Shown in pieces: positions 2 through 377 of a stretch of DNA of 33,426 bases. The number at the start of each line of letters is the position of its first letter. The stretch's first letter is position 1. Made by a program: the position numbers and the translations under genes. Source of the DNA: Bacteroidaceae bacterium (lineage in GTDB: Bacteria; Bacteroidota; Bacteroidia; Bacteroidales; Bacteroidaceae); assembly GCA_017442855.1 (NCBI GenBank), contig JAFSPM010000043.1:1-33426 (forward strand), in the 5' to 3' direction. Under the pieces are notes generated by a model. It had not been told where the DNA came from, searched no databases, and saw only the letters and a program-made list of their open reading frames with translations.

Positions 2-64
2 AGCGTCGCTTTTAAAGGCGTAGGAGATTCTGAACCAGGGGAAATTCTTCCTCCTGGTAAATAA
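2..64 (+). CDS. C-terminal tail of an unidentified upstream gene (partial)
   Basis: One frame is open from the left edge to a TAA at 62-64, giving a 20-residue tail that ends in EILPPGK. It is rich in Gly, Pro and Glu. No family can be recognised from so short a piece, and it may be chance. If real, it lies 89 nt upstream of the double-glycine peptide gene and could share its transcript, because no clear Bacteroidota promoter is visible between them. Confidence 0.3.
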   Translation, partial: SVAFKGVGDSEPGEILPPGK

Positions 65-153: not shown

Positions 154-318
154 ATGGAAAAGAACAATGAAAAAAGAGTGTTGCGAGTAGAACTCGACAA
201 CGTGACAGGCGGTGGATTCGTTGATTTTTGGACTAAGGCAGGAGATTGGTTTGCAGAGGATGTCTTTGAACCAATTGGAGATTTTTTCCATAGTATTTTT
301 GGAGGGATTAAGATGTAA
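154..318 (+). CDS. Small peptide with double-glycine (GG) leader; candidate bacteriocin or signalling peptide precursor
   Basis: This 54-residue ORF is not recognised as a known named peptide. Residues 1-20 fit the consensus of double-glycine leaders cut by C39 peptidase ABC transporters: E13 and L14 sit at -8/-7, V17 at -4, and G19-G20 at -2/-1. A third glycine (G21) follows, so cleavage could fall after either. The predicted mature part (about 34 residues) is strongly aromatic (F22, F25, W26, W32, F33, F38, F44, F45, F49). It is acidic (six D/E against two K), has no cysteine, and carries a loose internal repeat (AGDWF then IGDFF). That composition fits an amphipathic exported peptide. No transporter, peptidase or modification enzyme is in the window, so export and function are inferred only from the leader. 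The start is an ATG inside AATATGGAAAAG, and no strong ribosome binding site is seen. A lipoprotein gene starts 59 nt downstream. Confidence 0.6.
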   Translation: MEKNNEKRVLRVELDNVTGGGFVDFWTKAGDWFAEDVFEPIGDFFHSIFGGIKM

Positions 319-377
319 TAGCTTATAGCAACTTTAACTAAAGAACAAGTTGAGCAGAAGATTCTGCATATAGTTGT

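Follow-up and report, generated by a model that had tools for sequence, protein, structure and literature searches.

A Bacteroidaceae Double-Glycine Peptide Gene With the Pattern of a Mosaic Between Two Leader Types

The Small Open Reading Frame and Its Surroundings

Close to the start of a contig from a Bacteroidaceae genome lies a small open reading frame with an apparent double-glycine export leader, and the question it raises is whether the frame encodes an exported peptide and, if so, where its leader comes from, which transporter would carry it, and what it might do outside the cell. The window, meaning the whole stretch of 33,426 nucleotides that was analyzed, is the complete contig (C35), so the upstream view is limited to 153 bases; the genome itself comprises 2.76 Mb and is estimated to be 80% complete. 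The frame runs from ATG to TAA over 54 codons without an internal stop, and its product consists of a leader, MEKNNEKRVLRVELDNVTGG, and a core, GFVDFWTKAGDWFAEDVFEPIGDFFHSIFGGIKM (Table 1). The first-pass annotation, made from the letters of the window, had read the leader residues as E-8, L-7, V-4, G-2, and G-1, which a second reading confirmed, and V-12 adds a further position relevant to C39 peptidases. Its description of the mature part also holds: 34 residues, nine of them aromatic, no cysteine, a balance of K/R minus D/E of -4, and a GDWF/GDFF repeat with a spacing of 12 residues as read from the sequence.

The strict C39 motif is found in just one of the 285 small open reading frames (30-110 aa) of the window, with a mean of 0.025 and a maximum of 1 in 40 block-shuffled windows, and the small peptide looks real. 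Among the matches listed for bases 1-153, none falls in the fetched loci apart from the match to itself. Directly 3′ of the gene, a putative lipoprotein of 188 aa (378-944) shows no significant Pfam family. Farther along, positions 1143-1867 of the window hold a RelB/DinJ-type antitoxin gene followed by a gene for a PIN-domain toxin.

Table 1. Features at the beginning of the window, with the basis of each assignment.
Feature	Position	Strand	Basis
Precursor peptide gene with a 20-residue double-glycine leader	154..318	+	Open frame and leader family
Predicted mature core, 34 aa, aromatic, amphipathic, Cys-free	214..315	+	Composition and hydrophobic moment
Type-A-derived head, reaching to the bases immediately 5′ of the start codon	147..202	+	DNA match
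Type-B-like cleavage-motif end (ELDNVTGG), putative recombination joint	190..213	+	Mismatch counts
Type-B precursor start remnant, ATG changed to ATA at 325-327	323..361	+	DNA match
Speculative end of an upstream precursor (frame already open at the contig edge, SVAFKGVGDSEPGEILPPGK, stop)	2..64	+	By eye

Two Leader Types With Variable Cores

The leader belongs to a family that is repeated throughout its own genome, where about 30 other places carry one of two leader types. A search of this genome with the whole peptide (E 10) returns the gene itself and 11 other places, and 10 of these 11 matches cover leader residues 1-17 only, at 71-82% identity and with individually weak E values (0.05-2.2). 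A hidden Markov model of the type-A leader, built without the frame in question, recovers it at E 7.5e-6 among the open reading frames of 163 loci. Type A has the form KRVLRVELDNEVKKVSITG...DLDQATGG, with a leader approximately 49 aa long (KRVLRVELDNEVKKVSITGxDxDEKVVMRQELSEDDLDQATGG) and mostly short, Cys-containing cores that differ from gene to gene; across 15 members, 16 positions are invariant, and all of them lie within the leader. Type B has the form MATLTNEQIEQKKQ...ELDSVTGG, its leader reading MATLTNEQIEQKKQ...ELSDEELDSVTGG, and its cores vary, are nearly free of Cys, and are in some cases aromatic. Among parsed precursors, cysteine occurs in the core of 79 of 91 type-A members versus 1 of 17 type-B members. 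At two loci (L036 and L040), a type-B gene comes immediately after a type-A gene. The contrast between leader and core is clearest in tandem copies: over 17 pairs from three arrays, leader DNA identity is 89-99%, while core identity is 13-67% in 16 pairs and 96% in the remaining one.

Neither leader type is described by a specific Pfam or NCBIfam model at its cut-off. The only NCBIfam model seen at cut-off, and in some members only, is TIGR01847, a generic bacteriocin signal of 15 positions; the other best NCBIfam matches (CTB family, lactococcin G) stay below cut-off and lie mainly over the end of the leader. In Pfam, no type-A member (0/15) has a match at E 0.01, and type B yields scattered weak matches, the best of them to a DUF (E 5e-4).

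The distribution of the family is narrow. Seven of the 158 genus genomes contain matches to the type-A model A1 (E 1e-3): 24 places in the genome studied here (counting the window gene along with two truncated copies and some genes with short leaders), 23, 19, 15, 8, and 7 places in five others, and one weak match in G006; among 93 high-quality genomes there is none. With the first type-B model, the own genome shows seven type-B places, and G006 and G008 each have a single strong match; the remaining matches are weak. In the family-level sample of 399 genomes, which includes the own genome, A1 matches in two at E 1e-6 and the type-B alignment A3 in three at E 1e-4. Among GTDB contigs, 33 loci encoding type A come from MAG records with titles naming Prevotellaceae, Prevotella, Bacteroidaceae, or Bacteroidales, including a RUG series that we take to be rumen MAGs and two SRR-series records whose titles name no source. 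Five isolate titles among the type-A loci name yak omasum (two), sheep rumen, goat reticulum, and water-buffalo rumen, and the relatives of the host genome are ruminant Prevotellaceae/Bacteroidaceae MAGs.

A Type-A Head Joined to a Type-B-Like End

The DNA of the gene divides into two parts with different relatives. The head matches a type-A gene (L040, 7213-6998, minus strand) at 87.5% over 56 nt, and codons 1-16 agree with four type-A genes of the own genome at 42, 41, 40, and 40 of 48 nt; a fifth, offset by a 3-nt gap, agrees at 25 of 48 in the ungapped comparison. Leader ends were assigned to a type by sequence pattern in a script, and on this basis the ELDNVTGG end differs from three own-genome type-B ends by 4, 4, and 5 mismatches in 24 nt and from all 18 type-A ends compared by at least 8, with the other type-B ends as distant as type A and a type-B mean of 6.9 (n = 7).

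The type-A head (codons 1-16) meets the type-B-like ELDxVTGG end at a stretch common to both, AGAACTCGAC. Here, the longest exact match between an A and a B gene is 11 nt (AGAACTCGACA), in the same frame, and other A-B combinations share 4-10 nt; in the A-B pair at L036, the two joint points are about 330 bases apart. A single crossover or deletion at this joint, by which a type-A leader head would have recombined with a type-B cleavage motif and core end, could give the leader seen in the window. Because the joint falls in the common ELD-coding stretch, the reading frame would be kept. A deletion within one type-A gene as the sole origin is less likely, since the ELDNVTGG DNA is nearer to the three type-B ends than to the 18 type-A ends.

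The surroundings also bear traces of breakage. Just downstream of the gene, the remnant of a type-B start shares 89.7% identity with the type-B starts of L036 and L040 across 39 nt. Elsewhere in the genome, two truncated type-A genes on different contigs (L037 7173-7283 and L039 7325-7435) have the same end (GEEKVDAIR, then a stop) and the same 3′ flank. The broken start beside the gene and the truncated genes elsewhere imply that decay is common in this genome, and a neighborhood in which family genes recombine and break fits a new functional gene and decay alike. The earlier reading of a double-glycine leader stands as to its residues; the two-type mosaic and the broken type-B start lay outside what a single sequence could reveal.

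The Shortened Leader and C39 Recognition

Nearly all leaders of the family are longer than the mosaic one. For LahT150, a C39 domain, the 13 residues at the end of the leader suffice, with positions -4, -7, and -12 mattering and -8 and -5 not (PMC6363468). The 20 residues of the window leader contain V-4, L-7, V-12, and the GG pair, in agreement with the C39 double-glycine pattern; family members almost always have Leu at -12 and at -7. Since these positions are retained, the peptide is probably cleaved after Gly-20, the predicted site, and exported. Shortened leaders occur in other open precursors as well (L055, L146, L153, L080 2864, and L206 591 and 807), of which the one at L206 591 matches only positions 1-15 and 37-49 of the leader model.

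An NHLP-Type Exporter

A candidate for the transport of these peptides is encoded on another contig of the same genome. Contig C32 carries genes for an HlyD-type protein, a C39 ABC transporter, a second ABC protein, a second HlyD-type lipoprotein, and a TolC-type protein. The C39 ABC transporter (L046 7697-9838, minus strand) scores 869.9 bits against TIGR03796 (cut-off 853.3) and the second ABC protein 718.9 bits against TIGR03797 (cut-off 709.4); the match of the HlyD protein to TIGR03794 stays under the cut-off. The same order of five genes, next to a gene that is presumably of the leuB type, recurs in G008, G142, G006, G013, and G141, and no maturase was recognized beside the exporter in the ORF lists of these genus genomes, which were read by eye.

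Exporter and leader occur together. Of the 158 genus genomes, 9 reach at least 590 bits against TIGR03797, and among these are all seven that are positive for type A (G006 by its weak type-A match); four of the nine exceed the curated cut-off, and the best remaining genus genome reaches 361 bits. The exporter is thus present in 7/7 type-A-positive genomes versus 2/151 others (Fisher p 8e-11, uncorrected for shared descent), the latter two being G177 and G181, with the exporter and without type A. The prediction was then checked outside the genus: both genomes from other genera with leader matches carry TIGR03797, at 708.6 and 698.6 bits (just under cut-off), and in both the exporter and type-B-like genes lie on one contig within about 15 kb.

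The first-pass annotation had suggested looking for a C39 transporter and an HlyD partner near homologues of the peptide. Such genes do stand on one contig with type-B genes in the two other genera, but none lies within the window, and in the own genome the window and the exporter are on different contigs (C35 versus C32). There are three C39 matches over cut-off in this genome, two to proteins on C12, one of which adjoins a radical-SAM/TIGR04149 cluster, and one to the exporter protein on C32. Reading the leader as a signal for C39/double-glycine export draws good support from the leader family, the genome-encoded exporter, their co-occurrence, and their location on the same contig in two other genera. 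Judged from these sequences, the five-gene system on C32 is the likely exporter of the leader-family peptides, which some rumen bacteria would probably secrete through one dedicated pump.

The Core and Its Possible Modification

Of 5000 shuffled versions of the core, about 0.2% attain its best helical hydrophobic moment (p 0.002). Amphipathicity is shared by three of the own genome's four aromatic type-B cores (p 0.008, 0.013, and 0.028), the exception being the L036 core (p 0.67), and 3 of 52 type-A cores fall under p 0.05; these figures exclude 12 sequences without a parse (11 A, 1 B) and all matches with E > 1e-3, so that the peptides of L146 and L037 5005 stand outside the counts. Four of the five best similarity scores of the core are to aromatic type-B cores. 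This order is suggestive of a relationship in sequence, but the best p of 0.09 is not significant, and the proposal was set aside.

The first-pass annotation would have taken the lack of in-frame homologues in related genomes as evidence against the peptide. The leader has many such homologues; for the whole peptide or the core, none was found. In 99 other genomes, whole-peptide matches (E 0.03-0.9) are partial and mostly within long frames, and those in G008, G013, and G142 cover the leader only (residues 1-17/18). In eight genomes of the genus with the exporter, a set that partly overlaps the 99, the core region gave nothing beyond one match at chance level. Among viral contigs there are eight pattern matches to the peptide, none confirmed; plasmids returned only 15 Streptomyces records (E 0.09), phages no relative of the peptide, and the PDB no match to the core. 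The peptide matches no family in Pfam or NCBIfam, curated bacteriocin models included, and no conserved neighbor or immunity gene is evident beside the precursors of the own genome. The lipoprotein gene at 378-944 was considered as an immunity gene and set aside: its sole similar match after a family gene is a signal-peptide stretch (L149). An acidic core, the absence of curated matches, and the lack of a conserved immunity gene argue against a classical bacteriocin.

Two loci from other genera, L206 255-18271 (G405:C100) and L207 1032-19382 (G423:C54), combine an NHLP-type exporter and type-B-like precursors on one contig, with the precursors interleaved with tandem GT8 glycosyltransferases, GT2, UDP-galactopyranose mutase, and a methyltransferase. 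They may represent secreted glycopeptide clusters, and their setting makes sugar modification possible in relatives. The GT8 proteins of both loci have no tblastn match in the own-genome loci, which are part of that genome. In the seven carrier genomes (59-89% complete), YcaO is found in none and a LanC-like protein in two, with the own LanC-like match on C12, which is also the site of the radical-SAM cluster. An oddity at L206 is that the methyltransferase at 1116-2159 (PF13578), a possible maturase, has a C-terminal stretch like a type-B leader without GG (E 1e-4 for the whole frame, 787 frames searched).

Weighing the Explanations

The explanation that accounts best for these data, to which we assign a probability of about 0.55, is that of an exported, cleaved A × B mosaic peptide with an antagonistic role and NHLP-type export. 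The gene would be a short-leader member of a multi-copy precursor family; if expressed, it would yield an acidic, aromatic, amphipathic peptide passing through the HlyD protein, the C39/ABC1 and ABC2 proteins, the membrane-fusion lipoprotein, and TolC, and acting outside the cell most likely on the membranes or envelopes of competitors. The antagonistic role, taken alone, is put forward tentatively, at clearly less than even odds. That 54-residue frames are common by chance could suggest a fortuitous reading frame, but leader homology at both the DNA and the protein level and the rarity of the motif rule this out for practical purposes, and the existence of the family contradicts it for the leader half; we give it almost no weight. 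The main rival, rather unlikely though to be taken seriously, treats the frame as a by-product of a decaying precursor array, left behind by an A × B deletion and neither made nor exported. It would explain the broken type-B start, the truncated type-A genes with their common 3′ break, and a core without homologues, but it leaves unexplained why the frame is open, the start codon preserved, and every C39 contact position kept, why the core is amphipathic beyond its shuffles, and why other precursors with shortened leaders are open as well.

Two further accounts concern the fate of the peptide. One accepts the export steps of the antagonist reading, with which it overlaps, and makes the product a signal or a biofilm/matrix peptide. 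The acidic core, the lack of a conserved immunity gene near own-genome precursors, and the dispersal of precursors alongside a single exporter speak for it, as do the double-glycine peptides of Synechococcus elongatus, a biofilm-related precedent in the accessible part of PMC4997328; extreme variability of the core would be more usual for antagonists than for signals, and we regard this account as quite unlikely. According to the other, to which we attach little probability, the core would be glycosylated or otherwise matured before export, as the glycosyltransferase, methyltransferase, and mutase genes around the precursors of L206 and L207 might suggest. Against it stand the missing GT8 matches in the own-genome loci, the YcaO and LanC-like counts, and a core with no Cys and few Ser/Thr. 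The amphipathic core and the lactococcin G matches (below cut-off) of a tandem gene pair on C28 incline us toward an unmodified membrane-active peptide, and the product of the window gene is most likely exported, unmodified, and membrane-active or antagonistic.

Relation to Known Systems

The closest parallel is the NHLP/Nif11 group, with which, in the portion of PMC2887384 available, the present family has in common a conserved GG leader, a hypervariable core, paralogous expansion, precursors distant from the exporter, and an exporter of the same models. In that system, precursors are described by TIGR03793/03795/03798 and the NHLM exporter by TIGR03794/03796/03797, and intragenic recombination is proposed there too (PMC2887384, same portion). 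However, leaders A and B match neither NHLP nor Nif11 leader models: members found with A1 and A3 give no match at E 0.01 to the three precursor models and none to Nif11 in Pfam, and the short-leader peptide of L146 reaches E 0.085 against TIGR03793. The present system also differs in that no maturase is recognized beside the exporter in this genus and in that the window leader is a 20-residue mosaic.

Bacteroidetocins, as far as the accessible text of PMC6671954 describes them, likewise come from Bacteroidales and have a short GG leader (15-16 aa) and a C39 transporter. Unlike the window peptide, whose core lacks Cys and whose gene shows no such linked genes beside it, they contain at least two Cys and are linked to a TM protein, the C39 transporter, and mostly a thiol oxidoreductase (PMC6671954, same text). 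Two-peptide class II bacteriocins of the lactococcin G type also combine a GG leader with an amphipathic helical core, but the window peptide matches no such model and is acidic rather than cationic. The tandem type-B genes on C28 of the own genome (L145 3222-3873), which have nearly identical leaders and aromatic cores that begin alike and then diverge, could form a two-peptide system; their matches to lactococcin G models are below cut-off and mostly over the leader. The radical-SAM targets of TIGR04149 are Bacteroidales peptides with a GG-type leader, and the C12 cluster of the own genome includes a C39 transporter, but neither the window peptide nor leaders A and B match that model.

The literature search on Prevotella and rumen leader families with hypervariable cores, which lay mostly outside subscription journals, found no description of leaders A and B, and the accessible portions of two mining papers mention neither NHLP nor Nif11 (PMC13289728, PMC10352776). 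The exporter and the general style are thus known from NHLP/Nif11, and what is apparently new are the two leader families, the host group, and the mosaic; the window peptide would be a mosaic representative of a sizable and seemingly undescribed set with constant leaders and variable cores. As a broader and more speculative picture, possible rather than probable, rumen Bacteroidales may hold a combinatorial repertoire of secreted peptides in which two near-constant leader types front diverging cores, recombination at leader repeats shifts cores from one leader to another, and one NHLP-type exporter serves all of them from a fixed position on the chromosome, with no dedicated maturases in the genus and glycosyltransferases in related genera; the window gene would be a leader swap with both parental types in the genome.

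If this is true, the genomes of certain uncultured rumen bacteria each encode dozens of distinct secreted small peptides that escape present family models and may be overlooked by standard gene callers. The mosaic gene offers a natural test of the minimal leader for a C39 exporter and of whether recombination at leader repeats yields new secreted peptides, and the family provides synthesizable candidates for peptides acting among rumen Bacteroidales. As a separate observation, the own genome encodes a second NHLP-type ABC pair (G000:C37:121080-124896, L164 9033-12903), the first subunit of which is without a C39 domain.
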